DNA of 38,700 nt, taken from positions 1 through 38,700 of the forward strand of contig CALKXD010000071.1 of NCBI GenBank assembly GCA_938003855.1, written 5' to 3'. Below the pieces are notes generated by a model, which had not been told where the DNA came from, searched no databases, and was given only the letters and a program-made list of their open reading frames with translations. Each line of letters starts with the position of its first letter. Position 1 is the stretch's first letter. Below, in pieces: positions 11,294-33,273 of the stretch. The position numbers were made by a program, and so were the translations under genes. The DNA is from an uncultured Granulosicoccaceae bacterium. GTDB taxonomy: Bacteria; Pseudomonadota; Gammaproteobacteria; Granulosicoccales; Granulosicoccaceae.

Positions 11294-12040
11294 TCACCAG
11301 TGGGCTGCAGCATTAATCTGGATGTCTTCCATGGTAATTCCAGCGGCCGCATCACTACAAAGGAAGCTGACTAACGCGCCTATTTCCTGTGGTTGCACCA
11401 GCCGGTTCTGCGGGTTTGACTGCGCGATTCCGTCGAGCACCTCGGCCACCGGTCGACCGGATTGAGCGGCAATTTCACGAGCGCTGTCATGCAGCATTTC
11501 AGTCGCCACCCAGGTCGGGCTGATGGTGACGCACGTAACACCAAAAGGGGCTCCTTCAACGGCTGTCGCCCGGCTGAGTCCCAGCAGTCCGGATTTTGAA
11601 GCACTGTAGGCAGCGCTGTCAGCCACGGCGGTGTTTGCCGCTGTGGAGGCGATGTTGATGATTCGTCCCCATTTGCGTTGCTTCATCGATGGCATCAGTG
11701 CGCGGGTGGTGCGAAACGCACCGGACAGATTGGTGTCTATGACATTCAGCCAGTCTTCTTCGGTGTGCTCTGATACCAGCTGGTGAACACAGACACCGGC
11801 ACAGTTGACCAGAATATCTGCCGGCCCCGCCAGCTGCCGTGCGGACCGCGCAAACTCATTGACAGAGGCCATTGAACGCACGTCCAGCGGCAGACAGTCG
11901 TGTCCAGCGGACTGCTTGTTGTCAGCCTGACGTGAGCCCGCCACAACGCGCACGCCTGATTCCTGCAATGAACGGCAAATGGCCAGGCCAATGCCACGTG
12001 ATCCGCCGGTGACGACGGCGACCCGATCTGTGTCTGTCAT
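11294..12040 (-). CDS. Short-chain dehydrogenase/reductase
   Basis: The 248-residue protein is a classical SDR. The cofactor motif TGGSRGIG is at residues 11-18, NCAG at 79-82, and the catalytic Ser132, Tyr145 and Lys149 are in IASTAANTAVADSAAYSASK. The first strand is followed by GSRQ, and an Arg at this position often favours NADP(H). The start at ATG 12040 puts the Rossmann motif at the usual distance; the longer frame from 12124 adds an atypical leader. The gene follows the FAD oxidoreductase by 124 bp and precedes the sulfotransferase-like gene. It may reduce or oxidise a carbonyl or alcohol produced in phosphonate breakdown, but the substrate is not readable. Confidence 0.88.
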   Translation of the reverse strand: MTDTDRVAVVTGGSRGIGLAICRSLQESGVRVVAGSRQADNKQSAGHDCLPLDVRSMASVNEFARSARQLAGPADILVNCAGVCVHQLVSEHTEEDWLNVIDTNLSGAFRTTRALMPSMKQRKWGRIINIASTAANTAVADSAAYSASKSGLLGLSRATAVEGAPFGVTCVTISPTWVATEMLHDSAREIAAQSGRPVAEVLDGIAQSNPQNRLVQPQEIGALVSFLCSDAAAGITMEDIQINAAAHW

Positions 12041-12164
12041 TGTACGGCCCTTGAACGGTTGTGTAAGGCAGAGTGCGGCAATGCCCGATGCCACTGTCGG
12101 TTTGTTACTGCCGGTCCTGTACACCGGTGCTAATCGGGGGTAACTGTAAACCGGGTAGCGGTCA

Positions 12165-13283
12165 CTAGCGGATTAACTCACGGATAGTATCTTCTGCAAC
12201 CGCCAGTCCGTGAGTCATGCCTTGTCCATTGGTGACGGTAACAGCGGTGACGCGGTCGGCGGGTGATAACCGCAGCAAAGCGCTGTCAGGCAGAGAGGCG
12301 TAGTGTCCAAGCCAGCGCTGCTGAATCTGCAGATCGGGCAGCGCTATCATTTCGTTGAGTTCGTGCAGGATTAATGTGTCAATGTCGTCCATGCGGCTTT
12401 CTGCAGAGTGTTGCTGGTAGCGATGTGAATCGCCAATGGTAATACTGCCATCGGCTTCCTGAGCGGCGACCACATGAATGCCGTGGTCGAGTTGCGACCG
12501 GTAATGCCGTTGCTGGTAGTCGATCAGGTTGGCCAGACTGGCGCAGTCGGCAAAAGCGTTGTAGCGGGTCAGACTAAGCCCGCCGAGAATAAAGGGTCCA
12601 ATGGTGCATTTTTGCGGTTGCGTGCGCAGCATCTGCAGCACACACTGAGTGACGCCACTGCGTTTGAAGGCGTCTGGAAAAAGCGTCGAGAATTCACTAC
12701 CGCCGCAGACAACGGCCTGGTCGCAGCGAAAACCGCCAGTGCGTGTTTCTATTTCCGGTGGTGCGATGGCGGTGACTTCGGTGTCAAAATGAAAAGTGAC
12801 CCCGTACTCGCGCTGCAACCACAGCGCCAGTTTGTCTGCGGCGGCACGCTGATCAACCTTCCAGGCGTCGGCATTCCACAAGGCGGCCAGGATCGACCCG
12901 GTGTTCAGGCCATCGCTGTAGTTGGCCAATTGAGCGGGTTTGATGATGCGGTTGCCGGGAGCCGATAAGCGGGCGGCATACTCTTCAATGACGTCAAGTT
13001 CTTCTGCAACGCGCGCCAGAAACAGGCAGCCTGATTGTTTCAGGCCGATGTCTGCCTGTGCTGCAATAGTTTTCCAGTGATCGAGGGTTCGAAGAGCGCT
13101 GGCGGATTCTTCGCCATCGGCCTGTGCCGCAATGGCCAGCATGCCGAAATTGCGAGTGCTTGCCCCATTGGCACGTCCGGAACGTTCAAACACTGCTACT
13201 GACAGCCCGGCGCGTGCGGCGTGGTAGGCATGTGCCAACCCTAGAATACCTGCCCCGACAACCGCTAGATTGACTTGCGTCAT
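12165..13283 (-). CDS. FAD-dependent amine oxidoreductase, phosphonate-associated (TIGR03364/PbfC-PbfD type)
   Basis: The 372-residue protein is a DAO-type flavoenzyme with the dinucleotide motif GAGILGL (from Gly10), followed by FERSGRANGASTRNFGM. This GAS-x-RNFGM pattern is characteristic, as I know it, of the clade found beside phosphonate genes (TIGR03364). Members of this clade have been reported to deaminate AEP or N-methyl-AEP oxidatively to phosphonoacetaldehyde. That would feed PhnY and PhnA encoded at 19-21.8 kb. The gene is divergent from the AEP-type ABC transporter across 332 bp, so the two units may share control. The substrate preference among AEP, N-methyl-AEP and others is inference. 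Confidence 0.8.
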   Translation of the reverse strand: MTQVNLAVVGAGILGLAHAYHAARAGLSVAVFERSGRANGASTRNFGMLAIAAQADGEESASALRTLDHWKTIAAQADIGLKQSGCLFLARVAEELDVIEEYAARLSAPGNRIIKPAQLANYSDGLNTGSILAALWNADAWKVDQRAAADKLALWLQREYGVTFHFDTEVTAIAPPEIETRTGGFRCDQAVVCGGSEFSTLFPDAFKRSGVTQCVLQMLRTQPQKCTIGPFILGGLSLTRYNAFADCASLANLIDYQQRHYRSQLDHGIHVVAAQEADGSITIGDSHRYQQHSAESRMDDIDTLILHELNEMIALPDLQIQQRWLGHYASLPDSALLRLSPADRVTAVTVTNGQGMTHGLAVAEDTIRELIR

Positions 13284-13615
13284 TGTACCCCGGTCAGACC
13301 AGCCAACGCGTCAGCGTGGCGGTATTGCTGTTAGTGAGACAACGCCTGCGTGCTGTGTTTTCAGGGTTGCTGTTTTGACGTACCACCGCTGCGACTCCAC
13401 AGGCGACATAGCCTTGACCAGTGTGCCGGGTTGAACCCGTGGCGGTGTTGGTTTATGTATAGGATAAGCCGCTGGCTGCCGTGGATGTATTGTTTATTGT
13501 TATAAACTAGTAGGTATTATCGATTTGATTTCTTTTTGATAATCGTGAAACTAAAGGGGCTCGATAGCTGGGCGAACAAACATTGACGAACATTTTCAGT
13601 CGAGGAAAACCAATT
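13284..13615. promoter_or_regulatory. Divergent control region between FAD gene and ABC transporter
   Basis: This 332-bp region must hold promoters for both directions. Near the transporter side are two inverted repeats: GTTTAT and ATAAAC at 13492-13507 with a 4-bp spacer, and ATTATC and GATAAT at 13516-13543. A sequence at 13459-13470 (ATAGGATAAGCC) resembles one half of the LysR operator proposed at 18942-18964, but its other half is poor. I see no CTGTCAT-type Pho box. A GAGGAAAA ribosome site precedes ATG 13616. Confidence 0.45.
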
Positions 13616-14635
13616 ATGTTGCGAAAATTGTTATTGGCTCCGGTAGCGGTATCACTACTGGCGGCAACATCGCTTGCTGGTGCGGCTACTGAGCTCACTG
13701 TCTATACCGCTGTCGAAGCTGAAGATCTCAAGCGTTACGCTGAGACTTTCAACGAGGATCATCCCGATATAACCATCAACTGGGTGCGTGACTCCACCGG
13801 CATCGTGACCGCGAAACTGCTGGCAGAAAAAAACAACCCCCAGGCCGATGTTGTCTGGGGACTGGCAGCAACGTCGCTGCTGTTATTAAAAAGCGAGGGG
13901 ATGCTCGAAGCCTATGCACCGGCCGGTGTGGAGAAGCTTGACCCTAAATTTGTCGATAAATCCGATCCGCCAACCTGGACTGGAATGGATGCCTGGGTGG
14001 CATCGGTCTGCTACAACACTGTGGAGTCTGAAAAACTGGGTCTTAGCCCGCCTGCATCGTGGAAAGACCTGGCAGATCCCATGTACAAGGGTCATGTAAT
14101 TATGCCGAACCCGAATTCATCAGGTACCGGCTTTCTGGATGTGTCCAGCTGGCTGCAGATGTTTGGTGAAGAAGACGGCTGGAAATACATGGACGCCCTG
14201 CATGAGAACATCGCCCGCTATACACACTCGGGATCGAAGCCATGCAAGCTCGCCGCTGCTGGTGAGATACCCATTGGTGTCTCGTTTGCGTTTCGTGGTG
14301 CTAAGTCAAAGGCAGCGGGCGCGCCGCTTGACATCATCGTCCCCTCTGAAGGCGTGGGCTGGGATATGGAAGCTACCGCTATTGTTGCCGGTACCGCAAA
14401 CCTTGACGCTGCAAAGACACTGGTCGACTGGTCGATCACAGAAAAAGCCAACAAAATGTACAACGTTGGTTATGCCGTTGTCGGGATGCCCGGCATAGCG
14501 CAACCGGTCAAGTATTTCCCCGAAGGCCTGCTTGATGCCATGATCGACAACGATTTTGAATTCGCCGCCAATAACCGCAAGCGCATATTGGCCGAATGGC
14601 AGAGCCGGTACGACTCCAAGTCCGAAGCAAAATAG
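13616..14635 (+). CDS. aepX: 2-Aminoethylphosphonate-type ABC substrate-binding protein
   Basis: The 339-residue periplasmic binding protein has a signal peptide (about residues 1-23, ending SLAGA) and begins the mature part with TELTVYTAVEAEDLK. The segments WVRDSTGIVTAKLLAEKNNPQADVVWGLA and the iron-binding-protein-like fold match the PhnS2/AepX group of AEP binders (TIGR03261). ATG 13616 has a good ribosome site and sets the signal peptide correctly; the TTG at 13583 does not. It heads an operon with the ATPase and the fused permease. AEP is the likely ligand, and N-methylated analogues are possible given the neighbouring enzymes. Confidence 0.85.
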   Translation: MLRKLLLAPVAVSLLAATSLAGAATELTVYTAVEAEDLKRYAETFNEDHPDITINWVRDSTGIVTAKLLAEKNNPQADVVWGLAATSLLLLKSEGMLEAYAPAGVEKLDPKFVDKSDPPTWTGMDAWVASVCYNTVESEKLGLSPPASWKDLADPMYKGHVIMPNPNSSGTGFLDVSSWLQMFGEEDGWKYMDALHENIARYTHSGSKPCKLAAAGEIPIGVSFAFRGAKSKAAGAPLDIIVPSEGVGWDMEATAIVAGTANLDAAKTLVDWSITEKANKMYNVGYAVVGMPGIAQPVKYFPEGLLDAMIDNDFEFAANNRKRILAEWQSRYDSKSEAK

Positions 14636-14650
14636 CTGCACAGCACCAGC

Positions 14651-14711
14651 AGCGGATGTTCCATCCGCTCGCTACTACCGGCCCGGTTACTGTCGCGATC
14701 TGCGCGACAGT
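14651..14711 (+). other. Tandem hairpins between binding-protein and ATPase genes
   Basis: Two perfect stems lie in the 108-bp gap. AGCGGATG and CATCCGCT (14651-14669) form 8 bp with a 3-nt loop. ACTGTCGCG and CGCGACAGT (14689-14711) form 9 bp with a 5-nt loop. Such stems after a binding-protein gene commonly protect its mRNA or reduce read-through, so that the binding protein outnumbers the membrane complex. No T-run follows, so this is not a full terminator. Confidence 0.55.
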
Positions 14712-14743
14712 GGATCGTGTCTGTTTAACATCGGGCAGCAGTC

Positions 14744-15844
14744 ATGAGTAAATCTAAAAGCTATCTACAGATAGACAATCTCTGGAAGGCATTTGGCGAT
14801 TTTGTCGCCTTGCAAGACGTATCACTGGATGTTTTTGAGGGCGAGTTTGTCTGCTTTCTAGGACCGTCAGGGTGTGGCAAAACAACCTTGCTCAGGGCCA
14901 TCGCCGGGCTCGACCTGCAGAGCCGGGGCAGCGTTATTCAAGATGGCGTTGATGTGTCAGAGCTACCTCCGGCGCAACGCGATTTTGGTATTGTTTTTCA
15001 GTCCTACGCTCTGTTTCCCAATCTGACTATTCGAAAGAATATTGCCTTCGGGCTGGAAAATGCCGGACGTGACCGGGCCTCTATAAACAACCGTGTCGAA
15101 GAATTGCTGCAACTGGTGGGGCTGCCGGAGCAGGGCGATAAATATCCGGCACAGCTGTCCGGTGGTCAACAGCAGCGAATAGCGCTGGCACGTGCGATTG
15201 CCACCTCACCCGGGTTGTTGCTGCTCGACGAACCACTATCAGCGCTCGATGCCAAAGTGCGGGTGCGGCTTCGGCATGAGATAAAAGCGCTGCAACGTGA
15301 GCTCGGTGTTACCACTATCATGGTCACGCACGATCAGGAAGAAGCGCTGGCCATGGCCGACCGTATTGTGGTGATTAATGAGGGACGCATTGAGCAGGTC
15401 GGCACGCCTACAGAGATCTACCAGAATCCTCAAACGCTGTTTGTGGCGGATTTCATCGGTGAAATGAATCAGTTTGAGGCAACCATAGACGATCAGCGGC
15501 AATTGCAAATAGGCAGCAGCCGGTTTAGCTGCAGGTCACATGAATTTACCAGCGGCGCGCAGGTCATTGCGGCGATACGTCCCGACAACATCGTGCCGCA
15601 ACCGCTCGACTACAAAGCAGCGGGTGAAGTCAATTGTCACCGGGTGGTGCTAAAGGATATGGAGTTTCTTGGTTCATTCTGGCGCTGTCGCCTGCATAAC
15701 GAGAATTTTAAGGTAAATCATCTGATTGCTGATTTCTCGGCCAATGCGGTGCGCCGCCTCAATCTCCAGCCTGATCAATCGATGATGGTGCAGCTTCCCG
15801 AAGACACCATGATCATCTATGCCCGCGATGAAGCCCGCGTATGA
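14744..15844 (+). CDS. aepV: 2-Aminoethylphosphonate-type ABC transporter ATPase
   Basis: The 366-residue cytoplasmic ATPase shows Walker A GPSGCGKT (40-47), the Q-loop Gln86, signature LSGGQ (138-142), Walker B with DE at 162-163 and the switch His in MVTHDQEE. A C-terminal TOBE-like domain (about 240-360) follows, as in the PotA/FbpC/PhnT group. The start ATG 14744 gives the usual N-terminus before the first beta strand. Its stop overlaps the start of the permease gene by four bases (ATGA), which indicates translational coupling. It powers import of the ligand bound by the product of 13616-14635. Confidence 0.9.
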   Translation: MSKSKSYLQIDNLWKAFGDFVALQDVSLDVFEGEFVCFLGPSGCGKTTLLRAIAGLDLQSRGSVIQDGVDVSELPPAQRDFGIVFQSYALFPNLTIRKNIAFGLENAGRDRASINNRVEELLQLVGLPEQGDKYPAQLSGGQQQRIALARAIATSPGLLLLDEPLSALDAKVRVRLRHEIKALQRELGVTTIMVTHDQEEALAMADRIVVINEGRIEQVGTPTEIYQNPQTLFVADFIGEMNQFEATIDDQRQLQIGSSRFSCRSHEFTSGAQVIAAIRPDNIVPQPLDYKAAGEVNCHRVVLKDMEFLGSFWRCRLHNENFKVNHLIADFSANAVRRLNLQPDQSMMVQLPEDTMIIYARDEARV

Positions 15845-17862
15845 ACCCTGCGGCTAAGGGTAAGCTCTCACTGCCGGCCGGCCGCGATATCAAAGCGGTC
15901 GTCAGCCGTGACGATCACATGATGCGTTGGTGGATGGCGCTGATCGGGGTGTATTTGATCGTCACGTTGGCAATGCCGCTATATGCCATGCTGTCGAAGT
16001 CAGTATCAACGTATCGCTTTGACCTGCAGCAATTTGAGTTTCAGGTAAGTGATGAGGCTGGCGACTTTACCTCCCCGCCGGTGCTGGCCAGCAGCCTCAA
16101 CCAGACGTTGGGCGCAGTCAGTGCTCAAGCACTCAATACCAGCGCCGATGGCAGGCTTGCCGCTACCGAATTCTTCCCTGACTTCAGTTTCCGCAGTCCG
16201 GTAAATTACCGTATTCGGGGGACCTCGGAGCAGGCTGCGTATCTGGTTGGTTCGTCGTTAACCACCGGTACCGAATGGACGGAAATCGACTCCAATACTT
16301 TCCGGCGGGTGCAACTGCGACCGGTTGCCAGTACCGGTCTGGGTAATTTCAGCACCTACTTCTCGACGCCGGCATTGATGGGCTCGATCCGCAACTCGCT
16401 GTATATTGCGGTTATCAGCACGCTGATTACCGTGACACTGGCGTTTGGCTTTGCCTACGCGCTCAGTCGCAGTTGCGTTCGATATAAATCGACGTTCCGC
16501 TTAATTGCAATGATCCCGATTCTGGTGCCATCACTGTTGCCGGGTATTGCACTTATTTACCTGTTTGGCAATCAGGGTATGCTTAAAGAGCTTATGTTCG
16601 GTGGCACCATTTATGGCCCGACCGGTATTGTTCTGGGCTCGGTGTTTTTTACTTTTCCACATGCGTTTTTGATTATCTCAACGGCATTGAGTATTTCCGA
16701 TGCCCGTTACTATGAAGCCGCTGTATCACTGCGGTCATCGCCTTGGCGAACATTCCGGGTGGTGACGTTACCCGGCGCGCGATATGGCATTATCTCTGCG
16801 GCTTTTGTGGTGTTCAATCTGGTTATTACTGACTTCGGACTGCCCAAAGTGATCGGCGGTCAGTTTAACGTACTGGCGGTGGATATCTACAAACAGGTGA
16901 TCGGACAGCAGAACTTTGAGATGGGAGCGGTGGTGTCGGTCGTGCTGATCATCCCGGCTATCCTGGCTTTCACTATCGACCGCATTGTGCAGCGCAAGCA
17001 GGTAGCCTTATTGTCGGCCCGCGCCGTGCCGTACCAGCCGTCACCGGATAAAAAAGCCGACTCGATCTGGCTGGTGTATTGTGCAATGGTCAGCGTGTTT
17101 ATTGTGGGTCTGATAGCTGTTTGCCAGTATGCGGCGCTGGTGAAGTTCTGGCCTTACAACTTAACCTTAAGCCTGAATAACTATCAGTTCGATCAAATGG
17201 ACGGTGGTGGCTGGGCCAGTTACTTCAACTCGATTAAGCTTGGCCTGCTCACCGCCGTCGTGGGTACTTGCATCGTTTTTTTCGGCGCCTATCTGGTGGA
17301 AAAATCCAACGGTTTTAACACCGGGCGAGGTTTGTTCCAGATGGTAGCGATGTTACCAATGGCGATACCCGGCATGGTGCTCGGGCTTGCCTATATTTTC
17401 TTTTTCAATAGTCCGGCCAACCCGTTGAACGTGATTTACGGCACCATGACCATCCTGGTGGTGTGTACCGTTACGCACTTTTACACGGTGTCTCACCTGA
17501 CGGCAGTGACCGCACTTAAGCAGATGGACCGCGAGTTTGAAGCGGTGGCCGCATCGTTGAAGCAATCGGCACTGAAAGTATTTACCCGCGTGACGATTCC
17601 CGTCTGTCTGCCGGCGATACTGGATATATCGATTTACCTCTTTGTGAATGCAATGACAACCGTCTCGGCGGTGGTGTTTCTGTATTCGCCGAAAACCACA
17701 CTGGCGTCTATTGCCGTACTGAACATGGACGATGCTGGTGATATCGCACCGGCGGCGGCGATGGGTATGATGATTTTCTACACCAATGCCGGCGCCCGTA
17801 TCCTGCATCTTTTTGCGTCGCGTAAAATTCTCAAACGCACCCAGGCATGGCGGCAACGCTGA
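15841..17862 (+). CDS. aepW: Fused two-domain ABC permease, AEP type, with periplasmic insertion
   Basis: The 673-residue protein joins two BPD permease domains (about 175-390 and 445-670), each with an EAA loop (about 291-311 and 565-588) that docks the ATPase. This is the PhnU2/AepW-type fused permease, so one polypeptide replaces the usual permease pair. After TM1 (about 30-52) there is an insertion of about 110 residues (58-170), rich in Ser, Thr and Phe, which should face the periplasm; family members I recall are nearer 560-580 residues. The gene overlaps the ATPase gene by four bases. Transport of AEP or a related aminophosphonate is inferred from the whole operon. Confidence 0.85.
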   Translation: MNPAAKGKLSLPAGRDIKAVVSRDDHMMRWWMALIGVYLIVTLAMPLYAMLSKSVSTYRFDLQQFEFQVSDEAGDFTSPPVLASSLNQTLGAVSAQALNTSADGRLAATEFFPDFSFRSPVNYRIRGTSEQAAYLVGSSLTTGTEWTEIDSNTFRRVQLRPVASTGLGNFSTYFSTPALMGSIRNSLYIAVISTLITVTLAFGFAYALSRSCVRYKSTFRLIAMIPILVPSLLPGIALIYLFGNQGMLKELMFGGTIYGPTGIVLGSVFFTFPHAFLIISTALSISDARYYEAAVSLRSSPWRTFRVVTLPGARYGIISAAFVVFNLVITDFGLPKVIGGQFNVLAVDIYKQVIGQQNFEMGAVVSVVLIIPAILAFTIDRIVQRKQVALLSARAVPYQPSPDKKADSIWLVYCAMVSVFIVGLIAVCQYAALVKFWPYNLTLSLNNYQFDQMDGGGWASYFNSIKLGLLTAVVGTCIVFFGAYLVEKSNGFNTGRGLFQMVAMLPMAIPGMVLGLAYIFFFNSPANPLNVIYGTMTILVVCTVTHFYTVSHLTAVTALKQMDREFEAVAASLKQSALKVFTRVTIPVCLPAILDISIYLFVNAMTTVSAVVFLYSPKTTLASIAVLNMDDAGDIAPAAAMGMMIFYTNAGARILHLFASRKILKRTQAWRQR

Positions 17863-17910
17863 ACCAGGCAGGGTGTCGTAAAAGCCGCTGCTGTCAGTGA
17901 CCTGGCAGGG

Positions 17911-17930
17911 ACGAAGCTTCGCTTTGTTTG
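17911..17930 (+). terminator. Possible weak terminator after the ABC operon
   Basis: ACGAAGC (17911-17917) and GCTTTGT (17921-17927) form a 7-bp stem with one G-T pair and a 3-nt loop, followed by a short T-rich stretch. It lies about 50 bp after the permease stop. The T-tract is short, so confidence is low. Confidence 0.3.
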
Positions 17931-18028
17931 GTCATGTGGTGTGCGGCCTTGCTCACGCTGCGGGGTTCCCTTATGCGGCAGGCTCCTGACGGGGGCGGGA
18001 AAAAGACGGATCGGTGCGGCAATGGGGG

Positions 18029-18047
18029 GCAGCAAGATTATTGCTGC
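18029..18047 (-). terminator. Hairpin directly after the LysR stop codon
   Basis: GCAGCAA (18029-18035) and TTGCTGC (18041-18047) form a perfect 7-bp stem with a 5-nt loop, two bases past the lysR stop. On the minus strand it is followed by a C-run rather than a T-run, so it is a 3' end structure more than a proven terminator. Confidence 0.3.
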
Positions 18048-18049
18048 GC

Positions 18050-18925: not shown

Positions 18926-18941
18926 CGCGGTCTCCACACAA

Positions 18942-18964
18942 TTCCATAGGAAGTGCCTATAGAA
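18942..18964. promoter_or_regulatory. LysR-type operator (T-N11-A palindrome)
   Basis: TTCCATAGG and CCTATAGAA flank a 5-bp spacer, matching at eight of nine positions. T18947 and A18959 satisfy the T-N11-A rule. The centre (18953) is about 64 bp before the start point predicted for phnA and just upstream of the lysR start. That is the classical position of a LysR recognition site. Confidence 0.75.
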
Positions 18965-18981
18965 TAATTTAAATTAATGAT

Positions 18982-19010
18982 TTTACATATGTATTAATTC
19001 ACTGGAGAAT
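18982..19010 (+). promoter_or_regulatory. Candidate phnA promoter
   Basis: TTTACA (18982-18987) and GAGAAT (19005-19010) are 17 bp apart. The -10 is weak, as expected for an activator-dependent promoter. The expected start point near 19017 puts the palindrome at about -65. Confidence 0.45.
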
Positions 19011-19045
19011 ACACCGTTTACAGCTTGCACCTACGGAATATTCTC

Positions 19046-21756: not shown

Positions 21757-21778
21757 CCATGCAGGTGGCAATAAACCG

Positions 21779-21797
21779 GGGCTGAATAAAACAGCCC
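21779..21797 (+). other. Small hairpin between phnY and pbfA
   Basis: GGGCTG (21779-21784) and CAGCCC (21792-21797) form a 6-bp stem with an A-rich 7-nt loop, followed by TTTG. It ends about 18 bp before the pbfA start, close to its ribosome site. It could lower read-through or affect initiation. Confidence 0.3.
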
Positions 21798-21815
21798 TTT
21801 GAAAAAGGATTGCTT

Positions 21816-24202: not shown

Positions 24203-24281
24203 CAGAGTTCTCCGGTAAAGCGGTGCCTGCGGGTATCGGCGGTAAGATTATTTTTCACCATGGTGCACTGGTGAGTGCCGG

Positions 24282-25964: not shown

Positions 25965-26114
25965 AGCTTCACCGCAAACGGGTCGCTTCTGAGTATCCAC
26001 AACGTCTGCTATTGCAGAATGTTATCACTTTATCGGGATATTCAATTTTACAGAAAAAAAACGCAGATTTATCATCGCTGTAACATCATAGATACTGACG
26101 GATACGGTTGGTAA

Positions 26115-27320
26115 ATGAGTAACTTCAGCGTGAATGAAACTATCCTGCCACCCGTTGGCGGTGAGCCCTATTTACTGACTCCGGGGCCGCTCACCACAGC
26201 GGCCAGTGTCAAGCAATCGATGCTGGTGGACTGGGGGTCGTGGGACGAAGATTTCCGCGCCATGACGCGACAGTTGCGATCAGAGCTGTTAGCGATGATC
26301 GAAGATACTCAACACCAGTTTGAGTGTGTACCCATGCAGGGCAGCGGCACCTTTGTGGTTGAAGCCATGCTGGGTTCTCTGCTGCCACCGGCAAGCAAGA
26401 CGCTGGTGCTGGTCAATGGCGCTTATGGTCAGCGCATGGTTAAGACCTTACAGCGCATCGGCCGCGACCATGTTTTTATCGACAAGGGCGACTACCTGCC
26501 ACCGCGCGCCACTGAGGTGAGCGCGGCGCTGGCTGCCGACCCGGCCATCAGCCATGTAGTGGTGGTGCATTGTGAAACCAGCTCCGGCATCCTAAATCCG
26601 ATCGAAGAGATTTCCGAGGCCGTCTATCGTGCCGGTCGCAAGTTATTGATCGACTCCATGAGCGGCTTCGGTGCGCTGCCTTTGACTATTGACGGTGTAC
26701 GGTTTGAAGCGATCGTCTCATCGGCAAACAAGTGTATAGAGGGTGTGCCTGGTTTTGGCTTTGTGCTGGTGCGACGCGATGCACTACAGCAGTCCGAAGG
26801 GTGCTGCCATTCGCTGAGCCTTGATCTCTACGATCAGTGGCAGCAAATGGAGAACACCGGACAATGGCGCTATACGCCACCAACGCATGTGATCGCGGCA
26901 TTTATGGAAGCGCTGCGCCTGCACCGGGATGCCGGAGGGGTGCCGGCGCGGCTGGCCCGTTATACGCAAAACCGTGATGTGCTTGTCAGCGGGATGCGCG
27001 CACTGGGCTTTGAAACGCTTTTACAGGAGCGTTGGCTGTCGCCGGTTATCGTGACCTTTTTTAATCCCGCCGACGCCGCTTTTGAGTTCAGTAAATTCTA
27101 TGAACTAATGAAAACCAAAGGGTATATTATCTACCCTGGCAAGCTCACAGTCGTCGACAGCTTCCGCGTTGGATGCATCGGTCAGCTTGATGCAGACGTG
27201 ATGCGAGGTGTGGTGGCCGCTGCTAAGCAGTCCCTGGCAGAGATGGGGGTGGTCAGTGCCCGCGCCCCCCGTGCAGCGTATGATGAGCGCAGCAAAATTC
27301 CGGTGGATGCCTGGCAATAG
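26115..27320 (+). CDS. phnW: 2-Aminoethylphosphonate-pyruvate transaminase PhnW
   Basis: The 401-residue class V PLP transaminase starts with the signature YLLTPGPLTT and has its PLP lysine at Lys206 in SSANKCIEGVPGFGF. Other PhnW features are MQGSGTFVVEAML and a C-terminal RVGCIGQL segment. It transfers the amino group of AEP to pyruvate, giving phosphonoacetaldehyde and alanine, the entry step for PhnY and PhnA. A 30-residue C-terminal tail beyond the usual end of about 370 is present. The gene starts 150 bp after the Na/Pi carrier, so it may have its own promoter, and the phosphonate ester hydrolase gene follows 69 bp later. Confidence 0.93.
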   Translation: MSNFSVNETILPPVGGEPYLLTPGPLTTAASVKQSMLVDWGSWDEDFRAMTRQLRSELLAMIEDTQHQFECVPMQGSGTFVVEAMLGSLLPPASKTLVLVNGAYGQRMVKTLQRIGRDHVFIDKGDYLPPRATEVSAALAADPAISHVVVVHCETSSGILNPIEEISEAVYRAGRKLLIDSMSGFGALPLTIDGVRFEAIVSSANKCIEGVPGFGFVLVRRDALQQSEGCCHSLSLDLYDQWQQMENTGQWRYTPPTHVIAAFMEALRLHRDAGGVPARLARYTQNRDVLVSGMRALGFETLLQERWLSPVIVTFFNPADAAFEFSKFYELMKTKGYIIYPGKLTVVDSFRVGCIGQLDADVMRGVVAAAKQSLAEMGVVSARAPRAAYDERSKIPVDAWQ

Positions 27321-27353
27321 CATGACAGCGGGTGACTGAAGCAGATAAGCCTA

Positions 27354-27369
27354 CCTTTAAATATAAAGG
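27354..27369. promoter_or_regulatory. AT-rich palindrome upstream of the ester hydrolase gene
   Basis: CCTTTA and TAAAGG flank a 4-bp spacer 20 bp before the pehA start. It may be an operator or a small hairpin that affects initiation. No binding factor is evident. Confidence 0.25.
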
Positions 27370-27389
27370 CAGCCAGACAACCGAACCCC

Positions 27390-28940
27390 ATGAAATCACA
27401 CACTGAACAACCCAATATCTTGCTGATCACCGCTGACCAGTGGCGGGGTGATTGCCTGTCAGCCATTGGTCATCCTTTGGTACGCACGCCAAACCTCGAT
27501 GCGCTGGCAGAGCAGGGCGTGTTATTTGAACGCCACTACGCCGGTGCTGCGCCCTGTTCACCGGCGCGTGCCTGTCTGTACACCGGCTTGTATCAGATGA
27601 ACAATCGAGTGTGCATCAATGGCTCGCCGCTTGACCGGCGTCACGACACCCTGGCACTGGCATTTCGACGGCTGGGCTATGACCCGACGCTGTTCGGTTA
27701 TACCGATCAATCTGAAGACCCGCGTGTACTGCACCCAAATGATCCAAAGCTGCGTAGCTACGAAGGCATGCTGCCGGGTTTTAACTGGCGGGTCAGTATT
27801 CCCGATCACCAGTATCCGTTTTTGTCGTGGTTGCATGAAAGAGGCTATAGCGATGCGCTCAGCGGGGTCAATATGTGCATCCCCGAAGCCGGCGTTGATG
27901 ATCCGCCACAGGGTAAAGTGCCACGGTACCGTGCAGAGCACACCGAAACCGCGTATCTGGTCGATGAATTCAAGCGCTGGCTCAATGAGCAAACCCTGCA
28001 TACCTCGCGGCAGCCCGACAATCGCTGGTTCGCGCACGTGAGTTTTCTGCGCCCTCATCCGCCGTTTACGGTGCCGGCGCCCTACGACACCCTGGTGTCC
28101 GCCGATGAGGTTGCCGACTTTAACGGCGCCACCGACCCCGCTGTTACCGCCGCGATGCACCCGTTGCTCGACTGGATCGTTGAGTCAAACCCGAAAGACC
28201 GCTTTATACCGGGCGCCGAAGGATTAGCGCGCGACTGGACCCAACACGACCTCAAGCAGATTGCTGCTACCTACTATGGCATGGTGGCTGAAGTTGACGC
28301 GCAGATCGGACGCATGATCGATGCCCTCAAAGCGACAGGCAGCTACGACAATACCCTGATCGTTTTCACCTCCGATCACGGAGAGCAACTTGGCGATCAC
28401 ACGCTGCTGGGTAAGCATGGGTTCTTTGACAGCAGTTACCATATTCCATTGATCATTCGTGATCCCGCCGCCACCGGTGGTAAACGTGTCAGAGACTTTA
28501 CCGAGAGTGTCGATATATTCCCCACACTGATGGACAGAATGGGGGCTGAAATCCCGGTCCAACTCGATGGTAAATCGTTGCAGCCGATTATAGACACCGG
28601 CGTAACGCCGGCGCACTGGCGCACGGCGGCGCATTGGGAGTACGACTTCCGTGGCCTGCCGGAAGGCGATGCCGAGAAGCGCTTTAATCTAGGTTCTGTG
28701 CGCTGCAACCTCAGCGTGTTGCGGCGCGATAATATCAAGTACGTACATTTTGCCGGCCTGCCGCCGTTGTTGTTCGATCTGACTGCCGATCCACACGAAA
28801 CGCATAATGTTGCCGGTGATCCAGCCTATCAGGCAATACAGCTGGAGTGTGCAGAGGCGCTGCTGAGCTGGCGCGCCGAGCATCTGGACAGAACACTGAC
28901 GATGATGGTGCTGACAGAGGACGGTGTGGTTGCGGGTTGA
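27390..28940 (+). CDS. pehA: Phosphonate monoester hydrolase, PehA/PMH type (formylglycine sulfatase superfamily)
   Basis: The 516-residue enzyme belongs to the sulfatase superfamily with the formylglycine motif CSPAR (Cys56) and metal residues Asp16 and Asp329-His330 (DHGEQLGDH). Length, motif position and many segments (LYQMNNRVC, LDRRHDTL, GYDPTLFGYT, RPHPPF, KYVHFAGLPPLLFDLTADPHE, ALSWR-like end) follow the rhizobial and Burkholderia phosphonate monoester hydrolases as I remember them. Those cleave phosphonate monoesters and phosphodiesters. Here it could free phosphonates from ester-linked glycans or lipids before PhnW. No signal peptide is visible, so it acts in the cytoplasm. A formylglycine-generating enzyme is not encoded in the window. 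A plain sulfatase or phosphodiesterase is the alternative. Confidence 0.82.
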   Translation: MKSHTEQPNILLITADQWRGDCLSAIGHPLVRTPNLDALAEQGVLFERHYAGAAPCSPARACLYTGLYQMNNRVCINGSPLDRRHDTLALAFRRLGYDPTLFGYTDQSEDPRVLHPNDPKLRSYEGMLPGFNWRVSIPDHQYPFLSWLHERGYSDALSGVNMCIPEAGVDDPPQGKVPRYRAEHTETAYLVDEFKRWLNEQTLHTSRQPDNRWFAHVSFLRPHPPFTVPAPYDTLVSADEVADFNGATDPAVTAAMHPLLDWIVESNPKDRFIPGAEGLARDWTQHDLKQIAATYYGMVAEVDAQIGRMIDALKATGSYDNTLIVFTSDHGEQLGDHTLLGKHGFFDSSYHIPLIIRDPAATGGKRVRDFTESVDIFPTLMDRMGAEIPVQLDGKSLQPIIDTGVTPAHWRTAAHWEYDFRGLPEGDAEKRFNLGSVRCNLSVLRRDNIKYVHFAGLPPLLFDLTADPHETHNVAGDPAYQAIQLECAEALLSWRAEHLDRTLTMMVLTEDGVVAG

Positions 28941-29084
28941 GGGTAGCGCGGCAGTGACTGCGTAGCGTTAATCGTCAGAGTAACTGCGGGCACAGGCTTG
29001 CAGTGATCCTGCGGACGATTCAGGACAAAACAACATAGAAATACAGCGCCGGATTATCGACCACCGTCGCCGGTTTAAGTGCTG

Positions 29085-29675
29085 CTAGACGTTAAAATTA
29101 CGATCAACGACGCGTTGTACCATTGGTGCAAAGTGCGCAAAGGACTGTGTCTGCATATTACTGTGCTTGCCACCATCATCAAGGTAGCGCACCTGAATAA
29201 TTTTCGCCAGGTTCGGTTTTTTCTCGAAGTCGGTTACCTCGTCGGGGCTCATCGGTCCACCCTGCAGATTTAGTGAATGCACCGATGCCTCTGACAACTG
29301 ATCGAAGTAGTCCGGAACGGTGGCGCAAAGATAGCGTTTGGCTGCGACATGGTGGCGAACGCAATCGGTCACGACGGTCGGGAAAAAACCGGACAACACA
29401 TCGGCGCCGGCGTCTTCGTGATAGCGGTCTTTGGTGTCCTGCAGGGTGAAGGTGCCGAACTCACTGGTAAAGTGGCCAATGTCGTGCAGCAGCGCCGCAA
29501 CGATGATTTCTTCGTCCATTCCGTCGCGTTCTGCCATCGTTGCACCCTGCAGCATGTGTTCGGCCATGGTGACGGGTTCGCCCAGGTATTCTTCGCCGCC
29601 ACGGCGTTCAAAGATATCCTGCAGGAACGCGACAATAGTGTGCTGATTGAGGGTAGGGATCGGGGGCTTGGTCAT
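29085..29675 (-). CDS. tmpB: TmpB/PhnZ-type mixed-valence di-iron oxygenase
   Basis: The 196-residue HD-domain protein is of PhnZ/TmpB type. It has the active-site Tyr30 and Glu33 (YLGE), His40 (AEHMLQ), His64-Asp65 (LLHDIGH), His86 (YHED), and His109 with Lys113 (RHHVAAKRYL), the set used to hold two irons and the 1-hydroxyphosphonate. Such enzymes cleave the C-P bond oxidatively. Coupled to the TmpA-like gene 22 bp upstream, the expected reaction is (R)-1-hydroxy-2-trimethylaminoethylphosphonate to glycine betaine and Pi. ATG 29675 gives the usual length; the longer frame overlaps tmpA. PhnZ activity on (R)-1-hydroxy-AEP, giving glycine, is the alternative. Confidence 0.87.
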   Translation of the reverse strand: MTKPPIPTLNQHTIVAFLQDIFERRGGEEYLGEPVTMAEHMLQGATMAERDGMDEEIIVAALLHDIGHFTSEFGTFTLQDTKDRYHEDAGADVLSGFFPTVVTDCVRHHVAAKRYLCATVPDYFDQLSEASVHSLNLQGGPMSPDEVTDFEKKPNLAKIIQVRYLDDGGKHSNMQTQSFAHFAPMVQRVVDRNFNV

Positions 29676-29697
29676 GCGGTGCGTTCTCGCTGTTAAA

Positions 29698-30819
29698 CTA
29701 TGCCGCTGCGTTGAGGCAGGCCAGGGTGGATAACAATCCGTCCTTGTCGGCATAGCATCCTTGCAGCCAGCGCTTGCCGGTGCCGGAATAGGCTTTGCGG
29801 GCATGCAGGACACGGGTATTGTCGACAATGAAGCACTCACCGGGTTGCAAGAGGAAACTCACTTCCAGTGACGCGTCGTCAACCAGTTCGCTCATACGAC
29901 GGTAGGCGGCATAGTAAGTGGTCATTTTATCGAATGGCACATCGGTAAAGGCAGTGGCAGAGCGGTTATTAAAATGTATAGCGCGCAGTTCGCCATTGGC
30001 GGCCAGCTCGATCATCGGATGGCTGGCGCGCAGGCACACGCCGGATTCACCACGGTATTCAAACTGAGCGGGATAACGGCTGAGCACATCAAACCACTCT
30101 TGGTTTTCGTCGCGCAGGCGTTGTGCCACGCGAAAACCGTCGACTACCATGTTCTCGCCACCGGCGGCGGAGCTTTCGAGGCAATACAATATCTGCAGGG
30201 TCGGCACCGGGTCGCGGTAGGGGTTGTCGGTGTGAGCCTGCAGCCCCAGGCCGGTGTAGGCGAGGTTGCTGGCGTTGACTTCGGTGCGGACCTCAAAATG
30301 CCGGCCGTAGTTGGTTTCCCTGACGTAGCCGAACAGATCAACGACCTGCATCAGTGCCTGATCTTCAACGGGTCCGTTGCGCAGCAAGCCAACCCCATAG
30401 CGCGCGACATTGGCCAGCCAGTGTCTGAGTGATTCAGGGTTCTGCTGCACGTCGAAAAAATCAGCGCGCGGTGCACTGAGCTCGCCGCCCCAGGGCTCGA
30501 TACCGTTTGCCGTGCGACCGTGCAGTCCTGCCGCAGGTTGGTCGTAGGCGTGCAGCAGCAGCCACGGGATCGGGTAGCTTATAGTTTTATCTTCCGGTTG
30601 AAACGTGATGTGCGCGGCCTGGTCATCAACCTGTACAGCCGACATGCTCAGTTGTTCGGGAATATCACCAAGGCCGATCAATCGCTGGCCGTTGTGAGTG
30701 GAACGTGTCTCTGCATCGTGAGCGTTATCACGCAACCAGATGGCGTGATAGCGGGTGGTACTGTCGGCGGATGAAATAGCGACGTGCTGCCCGTCGTCAC
30801 TCAGAACAGAGGTGTACAT
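29698..30819 (-). CDS. tmpA: TmpA-type 2-oxoglutarate oxygenase (trimethylaminoethylphosphonate hydroxylase)
   Basis: The 373-residue protein resembles gamma-butyrobetaine hydroxylase. An N-terminal DUF971-like domain (about 10-95) is followed by a TauD domain with the iron triad His196-x-Asp198 (LQAHTDNPYRDP) and His339 (VLHARKAY), and a 2-oxoglutarate arginine about 350. The cysteines that bind zinc in the N-terminal domain of true butyrobetaine hydroxylases are absent after WLRDN. Next to a PhnZ/TmpB-type gene, the likely substrate is 2-trimethylaminoethylphosphonate, hydroxylated at C1. I take ATG 30819; a TTG at 30879 would add 20 residues. It is the first gene of the tmpAB unit. Confidence 0.85.
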   Translation of the reverse strand: MYTSVLSDDGQHVAISSADSTTRYHAIWLRDNAHDAETRSTHNGQRLIGLGDIPEQLSMSAVQVDDQAAHITFQPEDKTISYPIPWLLLHAYDQPAAGLHGRTANGIEPWGGELSAPRADFFDVQQNPESLRHWLANVARYGVGLLRNGPVEDQALMQVVDLFGYVRETNYGRHFEVRTEVNASNLAYTGLGLQAHTDNPYRDPVPTLQILYCLESSAAGGENMVVDGFRVAQRLRDENQEWFDVLSRYPAQFEYRGESGVCLRASHPMIELAANGELRAIHFNNRSATAFTDVPFDKMTTYYAAYRRMSELVDDASLEVSFLLQPGECFIVDNTRVLHARKAYSGTGKRWLQGCYADKDGLLSTLACLNAAA

Positions 30820-30873
30820 GTGGTTGCCTGGACTCGGTTGAAAGGGGGGTATCGTTCCACGAAGCGGGTTTGA

Positions 30874-30897
30874 ACACAAACAAGTTATGCTTTGTGT
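30874..30897. promoter_or_regulatory. Candidate operator upstream of tmpA
   Basis: ACACAAA (30874-30880) and TTTGTGT (30891-30897) form a perfect 7-bp inverted repeat with a 10-bp spacer, 55-78 bp upstream of the tmpA start. It differs from the LysR palindrome near phnA, so another regulator would be involved. Confidence 0.4.
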
Positions 30898-31112
30898 ATG
30901 ACTTAATTCCGCCAGAGGTTAGCTGCCTTGTGATGGTAGCTTAAAACTTCTAGAAACAACACAGCATCAGCTGACCCAACCGGTACCGTCAGAGTGTGGG
31001 TGTGTTCGGCAAACAGGCGGCTCCACGCGGTCGGGTGACCGGTTTGCGTGGCATTTCTCGACTGATGTATTCTGGCTTGCCATTCTATTGATTCGCAAGG
31101 CTGGCAAACCTC

Positions 31113-32315
31113 ATGACCATTTGTGCCATCGAAACACTGAGACTCGACGAGTTCCCGAACCTTATCTGGGTGATCGTCGAAGATTCCGATGGAACTCGCG
31201 GCCTTGGAGAAACCTTTATGGGCGCTGAGGCAGTCGAGGCCTACCTGCATGAATCCGTGGTAGCGAAACTTATCGGTACCGATCCGCTTGCTATAGAAGC
31301 AACCCGCATGGCGTTGCGTCCGTATGTGGGTCATCAGGCAGCTGGCATTGAGCAGCGTGGTAATTCTGCCGTGGATATCGCGCTTTGGGATTTGTGGGGG
31401 CGTAAAACCGGCCAGCCGGTCTGGCAGTTGCTGGGCGGGCGGGTACGTGACTCGATCAGAACCTATAACACCTGTGCCGGTTATCAATATGTACGTGCCG
31501 CGACCGGTCAGCACACCGAAAACTGGGGAATCGAAGGCGCGAAGCAAGGCCCATACGAAGATCTTCAGGCTTTTTTAACAGAAGCCGGAGAACTTGCCGA
31601 GTCCTTGCTCGACAACCAGATAAGCGGCATGAAAATCTGGCCGTTCGATGCCTATGCAGAAAAATCCCATGGTGCGGCAATCACACCGGCAGAGTTACTG
31701 GAAGGTTGCGAACCGTTTCGAAAAATTCGCGAAAAAGTCGGCCAGCACATGCAGATCATGCTCGAGTGTCACTCGCTCTGGTCGGTGCCGGCGGCGCGCG
31801 ATATTGTGCGAGCGCTGGCACCGTATAATATTTACTGGATAGAAGACCCGATCAGCATGAACAACCTGGCTGCGCTGGCGGATCTGCGACGCTGCATTGA
31901 TGTTAAAGTCACGGCCTCTGAAACGCTGGCAACGAGGCAGCAATTCGCCGCTCTGATGCAGGCCGGTGCGGTGGATATTGTCATGCTCGATCTCGCCTGG
32001 TGCGGAGGGCTGACAGAAGCCAAGGCGATAGCCAGTCTTGCAGAGGCGCATAACCTGCCGATTGCACCACACGATTGCACCGGCCCGGTGGTGTGGGCGG
32101 CGAGTTGTCATTTGTCAGTCAATGCACCTAACACTCTCATTCAGGAGAGCGTCCGGGCTTTTTACACAGGCTGGTACACGGAGCTGGTTGATAATCTGCC
32201 AGAGCTCAATAACGGCGAGCTCGCACCCCCGACCGGTGATGGTCTGGGGATGAATTTAAAGGACTCCCTGTTCCAGCGGTCTGATGCACATCATCGACGT
32301 TCCGTGGCGCGCTAG
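31113..32315 (+). CDS. Enolase-superfamily (mandelate racemase/muconate lactonising) enzyme
   Basis: The 400-residue protein has the capping N-terminal domain and a barrel with metal ligands Glu218 (MLECHS), Glu244 (WIEDPIS) and Glu270 (TASETLA), and His320 (APHDCTGP) as a possible base. Lys174 in MKIWPF and His220 are further catalytic candidates. These enzymes abstract a proton next to a carboxylate and then eliminate or racemise, often sugar-acid dehydration. It is divergent from tmpA across 293 bp and precedes a PhyH-type dioxygenase by 103 bp. Its role in a phosphonate island is not explained by known pathways; an acid sugar from a phosphonate-bearing glycan, or a phosphonocarboxylate, is possible. 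Confidence 0.83.
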   Translation: MTICAIETLRLDEFPNLIWVIVEDSDGTRGLGETFMGAEAVEAYLHESVVAKLIGTDPLAIEATRMALRPYVGHQAAGIEQRGNSAVDIALWDLWGRKTGQPVWQLLGGRVRDSIRTYNTCAGYQYVRAATGQHTENWGIEGAKQGPYEDLQAFLTEAGELAESLLDNQISGMKIWPFDAYAEKSHGAAITPAELLEGCEPFRKIREKVGQHMQIMLECHSLWSVPAARDIVRALAPYNIYWIEDPISMNNLAALADLRRCIDVKVTASETLATRQQFAALMQAGAVDIVMLDLAWCGGLTEAKAIASLAEAHNLPIAPHDCTGPVVWAASCHLSVNAPNTLIQESVRAFYTGWYTELVDNLPELNNGELAPPTGDGLGMNLKDSLFQRSDAHHRRSVAR

Positions 32316-32330
32316 TTTTTGCCGGTGTTT

Positions 32331-32358
32331 TTGTCGGCAAGTGCTTCTGGATTATACT
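32331..32358 (+). promoter_or_regulatory. Candidate promoter of the PhyH dioxygenase
   Basis: TTGTCG (32331-32336) and TATACT (32353-32358) have a 16-bp spacer, and the predicted start lies about 55 bp before ATG 32419. The -35 overlaps a stem formed by TTGCCG (32319-32324) and CGGCAA (32335-32340). Confidence 0.45.
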
Positions 32359-32418
32359 GTGCGTTCCAGACGATAATCACATGATGGCAGGGTGCTTACA
32401 CATCCTCGGAGAAATCTC

Positions 32419-33273
32419 ATGACACTGCAAACGTCAACCACCACCGTAAACATCGCCGGTAGCTACGAGCGCGACGGTTTTTTCCTGCCCTATGATGTAT
32501 TGAGTCACGGCGAAGCAGCAGAATTGCGAGCTGATTTTGAAGCGGCGGAGCAAGAACTCGCCGGGCGCCCTGAAGATCTGGCCATCCTGCGTTCCAGCCC
32601 CGACCGGGTATTGCCTTCATTCGATAAACTGGTACGTCACCCGCGTCTGATCGAGGGCGTGTCGGAAATTCTCGGGCCGGATCTGCTGGTCTGGAATGGC
32701 GGTACTTTTATCAAAGAAGCCAATTCAACGCATATTGTCAGCTGGCATCAGGATCTGACCTACTGGGGGCTGTCCGATGCAGAAGAAGTAACGGCGTGGG
32801 TGGCATTGTCACCGTCGACACCTGCAAGCGGCTGCATGAAGTTTATTGCCGGCAGTCACAAGCACAGTGTGGTTGAGCACGTCGACACCTTCGATGCTAA
32901 TAACCTGTTGTCACGCGGTCAGGAGATCGCTGTCGATGTTGACGAGGATGATGCGACCGACGTGCTACTGAGCCCGGGGCAAGCGTCTTTGCATCATGGT
33001 CATCTCTTTCATGCGTCGGGTCCCAACACCACCGGCGAGCGACGAATTGGTGTTGCGATACGTTATATAAAACCGTCATTGAAGCAGAAAGACGGCCAGA
33101 AAACACTGGCGCGGCTAGCCAGTGGCACAGACAATTTCGGGCATTTCAGGCTGGCCGATGCACCCAATGGCAGGTTGTCTGAGGTGGATCTGGCACGTTG
33201 CCGCGACGATGCAAAACTGCGTCGCGAGGTGTTGTTTAAAGGTGTTGAGGATCAAAAGGGCCAGCGCTACTGA
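32419..33273 (+). CDS. PhyH-family 2-oxoglutarate dioxygenase, possible phosphonate hydroxylase
   Basis: The 284-residue protein is a phytanoyl-CoA dioxygenase-like enzyme with iron ligands His110 and Asp112 (SWHQDLTYWGL) and His198 (LFHASGPNTT), and Arg209 for 2-oxoglutarate. ATG 32419 has GGAG eight bases upstream; the GTG at 32392 is less likely. The family includes PhnY* (AEP 1-hydroxylase) and hypophosphite dioxygenase HtxA as well as many others. In this island, hydroxylation of AEP to (R)-1-hydroxy-AEP, the PbfA substrate, is an attractive inference. The sequence alone does not fix the substrate. The gene ends convergent to the peroxidase. Confidence 0.82.
   Translation: MTLQTSTTTVNIAGSYERDGFFLPYDVLSHGEAAELRADFEAAEQELAGRPEDLAILRSSPDRVLPSFDKLVRHPRLIEGVSEILGPDLLVWNGGTFIKEANSTHIVSWHQDLTYWGLSDAEEVTAWVALSPSTPASGCMKFIAGSHKHSVVEHVDTFDANNLLSRGQEIAVDVDEDDATDVLLSPGQASLHHGHLFHASGPNTTGERRIGVAIRYIKPSLKQKDGQKTLARLASGTDNFGHFRLADAPNGRLSEVDLARCRDDAKLRREVLFKGVEDQKGQRY

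Follow-up and report, generated by a model that had tools for sequence, protein, structure and literature searches.

A stretch of 38,700 nucleotides, hereafter the window (positions 1 to 38,700 of contig CALKXD010000071.1, assembly GCA_938003855.1), from an uncultured gammaproteobacterium of the family Granulosicoccaceae, holds an island of predicted aminophosphonate catabolism whose core lies at 12165-30819. It joins genes for hydrolytic cleavage of the carbon-phosphorus (C-P) bond (phnW, phnY and phnA), with further entry enzymes, to the trimethyl-specific oxidative pair tmpA and tmpB and to a gene for a PehA-type ester hydrolase. With a probability that we put at about two in three, the island lets one bacterium use aminophosphonates in several states of methylation, hydroxylation and esterification. 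The enzymes are all known; it is the combination that is unusual, and unusually complete. Hydrolytic and trimethyl-specific oxidative aminophosphonate pathways are now found united in two distant lineages, which bears on bacterial recycling of reduced phosphorus.

As proposed, substrates and flux would run as follows. A PhnSTU-type transporter would import aminophosphonates, and PehA, probably cytosolic, would free acids from their esters. Phosphonoacetaldehyde would be formed from 2-aminoethylphosphonate (AEP) by PhnW, from N-methyl-AEP by a PbfD-type flavoenzyme and from (R)-hydroxy-AEP (R-HAEP) by PbfA, or from the S form (S-HAEP) by PbfF and then PbfA; PhnY and PhnA would take it on to acetate and phosphate. 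By a separate route TmpA and then TmpB would convert trimethyl-AEP to glycine betaine and phosphate. A LysR-type regulator may control the run from phnA to pehA via a palindrome before phnA, and a Na/Pi carrier would balance, perhaps by export, the surplus phosphate.

Gene content of the island

Family calls were made with curated NCBIfam models, bit scores being read against the curated cut-offs, with Pfam domains and with the closest solved structures. Eleven window proteins exceed NCBIfam cut-offs, and the solved structures closest to PhnA, PhnY, TmpA, TmpB and PehA all have the matching function (Table 1). Every family named in an earlier, sequence-only reading of this DNA was found at about the place claimed, PehA and the LysR-type regulator scoring below their cut-offs. 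The substrates listed there (AEP, hydroxy-AEP, N-methyl-AEP, trimethyl-AEP and esters) are backed, as predictions, by the curated models and closest structures, and the range can be widened to S-HAEP through the putative PbfF. Its gene list proved incomplete, a pbfF-type gene between pbfA and the Na/Pi carrier having been missed.

The order is flavoenzyme (-), PhnS2-T2-U2 (+), LysR (-), phnA-phnY-pbfA-pbfF-NaPi-phnW-pehA (+) and tmpB-tmpA (-), the seven-gene plus-strand run spanning 19046-28940 and being faced by tmpB-tmpA on the opposite strand. Stop and start overlap at phnA-phnY and at pbfA-pbfF, where the pbfF ATG overlaps the pbfA stop codon.

Table 1. Features of the aminophosphonate island in the window, with the model or structure on which each call rests
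Feature	Position	Strand	Basis
FAD-dependent oxidoreductase, PbfD-type, predicted N-methyl-AEP oxidase forming phosphonoacetaldehyde	12165-13283	-	TIGR03364 362.2 bits, cut-off 285.1
PhnS2, AEP-type ATP-binding cassette (ABC) substrate-binding protein	13583-14635 (likely ATG 13616)	+	TIGR03261 507 bits, cut-off 392.8
PhnT2, AEP-type ABC ATPase	14744-15844	+	TIGR03265 520.4 bits, cut-off 457.7
PhnU2, AEP-type ABC permease	15841-17862	+	TIGR03262 772.1 bits, cut-off 593.3, matched from residue 165
LysR-type regulator, aminophosphonate-catabolism type	18050-18937	-	TIGR03339 best model, 283.3 bits, below cut-off 341.1
Palindrome ATAGGN5CCTAT, possible LysR operator	18946-18960		between lysR and phnA
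PhnA, phosphonoacetate hydrolase	19046-20296	+	TIGR02335 512.5 bits, cut-off 407.6; 3szy 652 bits
PhnY, phosphonoacetaldehyde dehydrogenase	20293-21756	+	TIGR03250 746.8 bits, cut-off 635.7; 4i3t 763 bits
PbfA, (R)-HAEP ammonia-lyase	21810-23195	+	NF049939 674.4 bits, cut-off 525
PbfF-type, predicted NAD-dependent HAEP racemase (S-HAEP to R-HAEP)	23192-24202	+	pfam02826; pbfA overlap; 59-60% relatives
Na/Pi carrier with PhoU domain	24282-25964	+	PF02690, PF01895; NF037997 106.2 bits, cut-off 50
PhnW, AEP:pyruvate aminotransferase	26115-27320	+	NF010006 549.3 bits, cut-off 296
PehA-type hydrolase, Asp-type phosphonate monoester hydrolase (D-PMH) class	27390-28940	+	4uph 618 bits, 2vqr 399 bits
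TmpB, HD-domain di-iron oxygenase for hydroxy-trimethyl-AEP	29085-29675	-	NF049941 340.7 bits, cut-off 300
TmpA, Fe(II)/2-oxoglutarate trimethyl-AEP hydroxylase	29698-30819	-	NF049936 552 bits, cut-off 400

The oxidative pair

TmpB scores 312 bits to 6npa versus 108 bits to PhnZ, and its histidines and HD motif, presumably the HD-oxygenase ligand set, align with those of 6npa. For TmpA the figures are 493 bits to 6npb versus 166 bits to gamma-butyrobetaine dioxygenase, and its frame of 393 amino acids carries HTD at 216 and His 359, an HxD...H set that we take to be the iron ligands. Since both score higher to 6npb and 6npa, they are placed, as predicted from these alignments, with the trimethyl-AEP enzymes and not with PhnY*/PhnZ. 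The TmpA/TmpB pathway of Leisingera caerulea, the work of Rajakovich in 2019, is reportedly encoded by a two-gene operon. The window pair has the same tandem arrangement and high similarity to both solved proteins, but it abuts a PhnWAY cluster and is without an adjacent LysR gene. A search of viral contigs with TmpA confirmed no relative.

Entry routes and the hydrolytic branch

The three genes phnW, phnY and phnA stand in one locus with all three models over cut-off, as in a PhnWAY cluster. The flavoenzyme is a TIGR03364-type FAD oxidoreductase inside an AEP cluster, and its predicted assignment as PbfD-type follows that membership; PbfD1 of A. baumannii carries the TIGR03364 annotation (PMC10590968).

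No NCBIfam model exceeds its cut-off for the putative PbfF, a pfam02826 protein encoded in the cluster adjacent to pbfA. Its nearest plasmid relatives, in Sinorhizobium sp. RAC02 and Shinella zoogloeoides (59-60% identity), both adjoin PbfA and LysR genes; the remaining 15 plasmid matches are below 40%. On membership in the sequence clade of the characterised M. plurifarium enzyme, the comparison made is the 59% identity to the gene of S. zoogloeoides, a species in Table 1 of PMC12366243. In the portion of PMC12366243 available, pbfF is described as encoding an NAD-dependent racemase of S-HAEP to R-HAEP, always accompanied by pbfA and listed from Alphaproteobacteria only. Our own survey comprised 74 phnA clusters (14 from Granulosicoccaceae, 39 from Rhodobacteraceae and 21 from a phylum sample), the window not being counted; several are cut by contig ends, and phylum locus L281 was dropped, its PhnA having failed the 45% identity filter. 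PbfA is present in 12/12 PbfF-bearing clusters versus 34/74 overall, and PbfF in half (7/14) of those from Granulosicoccaceae. The reach of pbfF-type genes is hereby extended beyond the Alphaproteobacteria listed in print.

The ester hydrolase

The closest structures to PehA are those of the phosphonate monoester hydrolases (PMHs) 4uph, 2vqr and 2w8s, to which similarity is full-length. It shares their formylglycine (fGly) motif, CSPAR at 56, and the signature Tyr and Asp: Y104 and D106 (Tyr-Thr-Asp) align with the Tyr-Thr-Thr of 2vqr. What sets PMHs apart from arylsulfatases, in the section of PMC5488252 concerned, is Tyr for Lys and Asp or Thr for His beside the nucleophile; the fGly CxPxR with Tyr and Asp at these positions therefore assigns PehA to the D-PMH class. 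No signal peptide was seen by eye, so PehA is probably cytosolic. Release from esters is not a new idea for such a hydrolase: that of Sulfitobacter was proposed to release phosphonates from marine polysaccharide esters, though there, in the passages available, the role is tied to C-P lyase and alkylphosphonates (PMC5649143) and here to an aminophosphonate pathway. New here is the association with aminophosphonate clusters, and it offers a testable natural role for this promiscuous class.

A separate observation concerns a Labrenzia plasmid (L243:11673-12518), where a type I phosphodiesterase-like protein of the alkaline phosphatase superfamily is encoded directly after tmpA-tmpB and is another possible pathway ester hydrolase.

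The arrangement in relatives

A sister species, G006, whose locus is identical to the record of 'Chromatiales bacterium (ex Bugula neritina AB1)', is collinear with the window, 472-28892 having its counterpart on contig C201 and 29103-33269 on the reverse of contig C1. The latter has extra genes between TmpA, an enolase-family gene and a PhyH gene; those between TmpA and the enolase-family gene encode an OpuAC-type transporter, a pyridoxal phosphate (PLP) enzyme and a LysR-like protein (26% to the window LysR). Both contigs end at the PehA-TmpB junction, a coincidence to which a simple count made post hoc gives a chance of about 2e-4. No exact overlap was found between the ends of C201 and C1, and for that reason the join is inferred.

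In a distant member of the Rhodobacteraceae, G518, PhnS2-PhnT2-PhnU2 are followed by a PehA homologue (-), LysR (-) and then, on one strand, PhnW-PhnA-PhnY-TmpA-TmpB-PbfA-EamA-NaPi. Its TmpA (513 bits) and TmpB (326 bits) are both over cut-off; the 20 kb taken gave no PbfF or flavoenzyme match. The family name rests on 20 loci compared from the family of G114, two of which match Frigidibacter sp. RF13 and Rhodobacteraceae bacterium EL53 exactly. In G451 (locus L232), from a different genus of the family, PhnW-PhnA-PhnY are followed by a shortened TmpB-like frame (7202-7699), which lacks an aligned histidine region and is not accompanied by TmpA, and then by PbfA and NaPi; most probably the frame belongs to a copy of the G518 arrangement that is in decay. 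Within Granulosicoccaceae, G002 combines PhnWAY with an adjoining TmpB-like gene that scores 278 bits, short of the cut-off of 300, and has its TmpA on another contig. In a quick TmpA tree the window groups with G006, G040 and G038 (98% in the Shimodaira-Hasegawa-like approximate likelihood ratio test, SH-aLRT), not with G518, and the G518 union likely arose independently, if the tree is a guide.

Two further arrangements deserve mention in their own right. In G055 (L235:11843-13554) PhnWAY and LysR are followed by a TmpA that exceeds its cut-off (470 bits) and is paired with an HD protein of PhnZ type (TIGR03276 215 bits, TmpB model 169 bits), a possible oxidative pair for another substrate. 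Between pbfA and the Na/Pi carrier, the place that pbfF occupies in the window, two Rhodobacteraceae have a 275-amino-acid frame (L230:18090-18917 and L232:9047-9874), that of L230 being EamA-type (TIGR03340 phn_DUF6, below cut-off).

Samples surveyed for the union

The family survey covered 48 genomes, with TmpA over cut-off in 20 and PhnA in 15; regions were taken around TmpA in 19 other genomes, together with two sub-threshold cases (G030 and G009), and around PhnA in 14 others. Among these stretches, often short contigs, none besides the window held both TmpA and PhnA. For named TmpA loci the best 80 of 573 relatives were taken (59 of the 80 with full 10 kb flanks), neighbours being filtered at E 1e-15, 30% identity and 40% coverage. 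TmpB lies near TmpA in 79 of these 80, and one NaPi match and one remote aldehyde dehydrogenase match also passed the filter. The samples overlap, 8 of the 80 being family loci, and L067, which is G006, is cut by a contig end. Five plasmid TmpA loci gave no PhnA, PhnW, PbfF or PehA, one having a PbfA-like aminotransferase at 33%.

Two C-P cleavage chemistries in one locus, stressed by the sequence-only reading, are present as it said but are not new in themselves. Of the 20 PhnA genomes in a 398-genome phylum sample, 7 have sub-threshold HD oxygenases no more than 4 kb from phnA (the window being another of the 20), and phnZ is in 24/75 phnWAY clusters in the published tables available (PMC8154272). 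The open-licence literature searched gave no description of a union of the window type, and nothing wider is claimed.

Relation to published clusters

The window shares phnW, phnA, phnY, pbfA, pbfF, a PbfD-type gene, LysR and transporter with PhnWAY clusters that have ancillary pbfA, pbfD or pbfF in the available text of PMC8154272, PMC10590968 and PMC12366243, the pbfA-pbfF adjacency included (PMC12366243); it adds the D-PMH and tmpAB, and is from a gammaproteobacterium whereas pbfF is listed from Alphaproteobacteria. Hydrolytic and putative oxidative genes in one locus are likewise found in phnWX or phnWAY clusters with a phnZ-family HD oxygenase (Table 1 of PMC8154272; PhnHD in Achromobacter, PMC11203657, both in the parts available), but the census clusters with a phnZ-family gene are without pbfA, and the window has pbfA and TmpB with its TmpA.

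That census, on its tables as available, has pbfA and phnZ together in 0/75 phnWAY and 0/1,186 phnWX clusters; its PhnZ query at E 1e-5 should also catch TmpB. From the same tables the exclusion has P ~5e-4 for phnWAY and P 0.11 for phnWX. Among our 74 clusters PbfA occurs in 34 and an HD/TmpB-type gene in 10; G518 and G451 are the 2 that have both, with the window a third, and exclusion in the 74 is not significant (P ~0.07; 0.026 without the decayed G451 copy). The window and G518 break the published separation probably because TmpB serves a trimethylated substrate. Most simply, exclusion would apply to oxygenases that act on R-HAEP, while TmpB with TmpA would act on the trimethylated compound, and a departure of this kind sharpens the pattern from which it departs.

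Could the island serve salvage of the aminophosphonate headgroups of lipids and glycans? The D-PMH would free AEP and its N-methylated forms from their esters, and the acids would be sorted by methylation, those un- or monomethylated going to the hydrolytic branch and the trimethylated to TmpAB, with pbfA excluding only HAEP-using HD oxygenases. This extension is doubtful enough to be offered as speculation; if true, an intact HD oxygenase found with pbfA would be predicted to use another substrate.

One island or two neighbours?

Instead of one island there may be two independent adjoining loci, a phnA-pehA operon under LysR control and a tmpB-tmpA pair that stands alone with its own promoter, without joint use or regulation, and much of what counts against integration falls on this side. 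In almost every genome examined TmpAB is separate from phn genes: PhnA, PhnW, PbfA, PbfF and PehA are near TmpA in 0 of the 80 best named loci (of 573 relatives; flanks complete in 59); in the phylum sample TmpB is over cut-off in 14 genomes and PhnA in 20, with linkage in 1/14, the window itself; in 295 Rhodobacteraceae, where each is over cut-off in 38, they are linked in one, G518 (1/38); and of the 9 family genomes where TmpA and PhnA both exceed their cut-offs, 8 have the two on different contigs, although contig ends may hide some unions. The pair runs opposite to the phn genes and converges with them. No quaternary-amine transporter or regulator is beside tmpA in the window (G006 has the OpuAC-type one). 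The tmpA promoter region, scanned for a joint LysR operator or Pho box, has neither, and joint control of the phn genes and tmpA is not supported by the sequence. The TmpA of G518, further, is a long branch that goes weakly with Granulosicoccaceae rows G021, G004 and G005, and independence of the two unions is on that account not proven. Against separate loci speaks the union itself in two lineages, with the G006 order kept to both contig ends and TmpAB placed between PhnY and PbfA in the single-strand run of G518, and we regard mere adjacency as unlikely. The functional integration that the sequence-only reading had put forward thus stands in part: collinearity with G006, where the junction falls in a contig break, and the G518 cluster speak for it, and the rarity of the union and the lack of a shared palindrome or Pho box at tmpA against.

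Three further alternatives concern the PehA-TmpB junction, the substrate of PehA and that of TmpAB. A genome in 312 contigs, of which the window is contig C71 (6.8 Mb in all), invites suspicion of an assembly artefact, the more so as the homologous G006 junction is a contig break; G+C is even over the junction, the G006 gene order continues on both sides and a similar union is in G518, and an artefact would be a great surprise. PehA may act on phosphodiesters or sulfate esters and be where it is for unrelated reasons: its match to the PehA model is below cut-off (NF045661, 525.2 bits versus 900), PMH-class enzymes are promiscuous according to the part of PMC5488252 available, and in the 398-genome sample 25 other genomes have a PehA match (E 1e-60), 7 of them with PhnA, and PehA is close to PhnA in 0. 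Yet PehA-type genes are in 12/74 phnA clusters, CxPxR being kept in 12/12 and Gly-Tyr-Thr-Asp...Asp-Pro-Arg in 8/12 under the pattern used, which did not resolve the other four, and pehA comes after phnW in the window as well as in G006 and G009; a role on other esters is somewhat unlikely, though a serious contender. Lastly TmpA or TmpB could be substrate-shifted, feeding or competing with the PbfA branch (AEP to R-HAEP, or oxidative cleavage of R-HAEP), as phnZ-family genes occur, in the available census tables of PMC8154272, where pbfA is absent, so that an HD oxygenase could replace PbfA. For both proteins the scores to trimethyl-specific references far exceed those to PhnZ or to butyrobetaine enzymes, and in the available parts of PMC10574752 and PMC11203657 TmpA is reported as highly specific and TmpB as poor on HAEP, which makes such a shift very improbable.

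Transport, phosphate and regulation

The true start of PhnU2 is probably downstream of the listed ATG. The Na/Pi carrier does not reach the cut-offs of TIGR00704 and TIGR01013; a NaPi-type gene is in 22/74 phnA clusters. YjbB of E. coli, with the same architecture, is an exporter, and by analogy the carrier is predicted to handle released phosphate, possibly as an exporter. Cells using AEP as a nitrogen source export phosphate, in the excerpt available of PMC8316502.

The LysR-type regulator fails the curated cut-off of its best model (Table 1). The palindrome between its gene and phnA, a candidate operator, is the sole perfect match in the window, and related palindromes, judged by eye, stand at the equivalent place in G006, G007, G009 and G016. 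A copy with two mismatches precedes phnS2; such matches number 8 in the window against 8.8 expected by chance. Pho-box-like matches (5 against 3.4 expected) show no clear excess.

Boundaries and flanking DNA

The sequence-only reading had extended the island over 11294-33273. Its core stands; the genes at the outer edges, for a short-chain dehydrogenase/reductase (SDR), an enolase-family protein and a PhyH protein, are probably not members. The SDR gene (11294-12124) has no counterpart in the collinear G006 contig. The two genes beside tmpA (31113-33273) probably have functions unrelated to TmpAB; G006 keeps both (enolase-family 85%, PhyH 80%) near TmpAB, not adjacent. The enolase-family gene (31113-32315) was set aside as a phosphonate enzyme. 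Around three of its plasmid relatives (identity 53-55%; 153 records in all) the genes are of sugar-acid type, GntR being accompanied by gluconolactonase/SDR or tripartite ATP-independent periplasmic (TRAP) transporter genes.

The PhyH gene (32392-33273) may conceivably encode a PhnY*-like AEP hydroxylase, but this reading was set aside, none of the family models matched being of that kind; its best solved relative is 6zyk. Relatives are present in 36/48 family genomes, and six fetched stretches around close ones had no PhnA, PhnW, PbfA or PbfF. The one plasmid relative inspected, of 7 records, sits among polysaccharide genes, and the G006 gene adjoins an APH-type kinase and a nucleotidyltransferase.

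Farther out, the bacterial protein encoded at 33399-35264 matches the animal haem peroxidase domain (PF03098) with 512 bits. Near both ends of the window lies a 166-nucleotide element (213-378 and 38089-38254), an inverted pair 93% complementary, the window being without an Rfam match. Full-length matches of 93-100% identity to it number at least 44 in the genome, the first copy in the window included (40 of 99 candidates scored), and some of them are in tandem; the sister species G006 has one match. The fold of the element is very stable (z -6.7).

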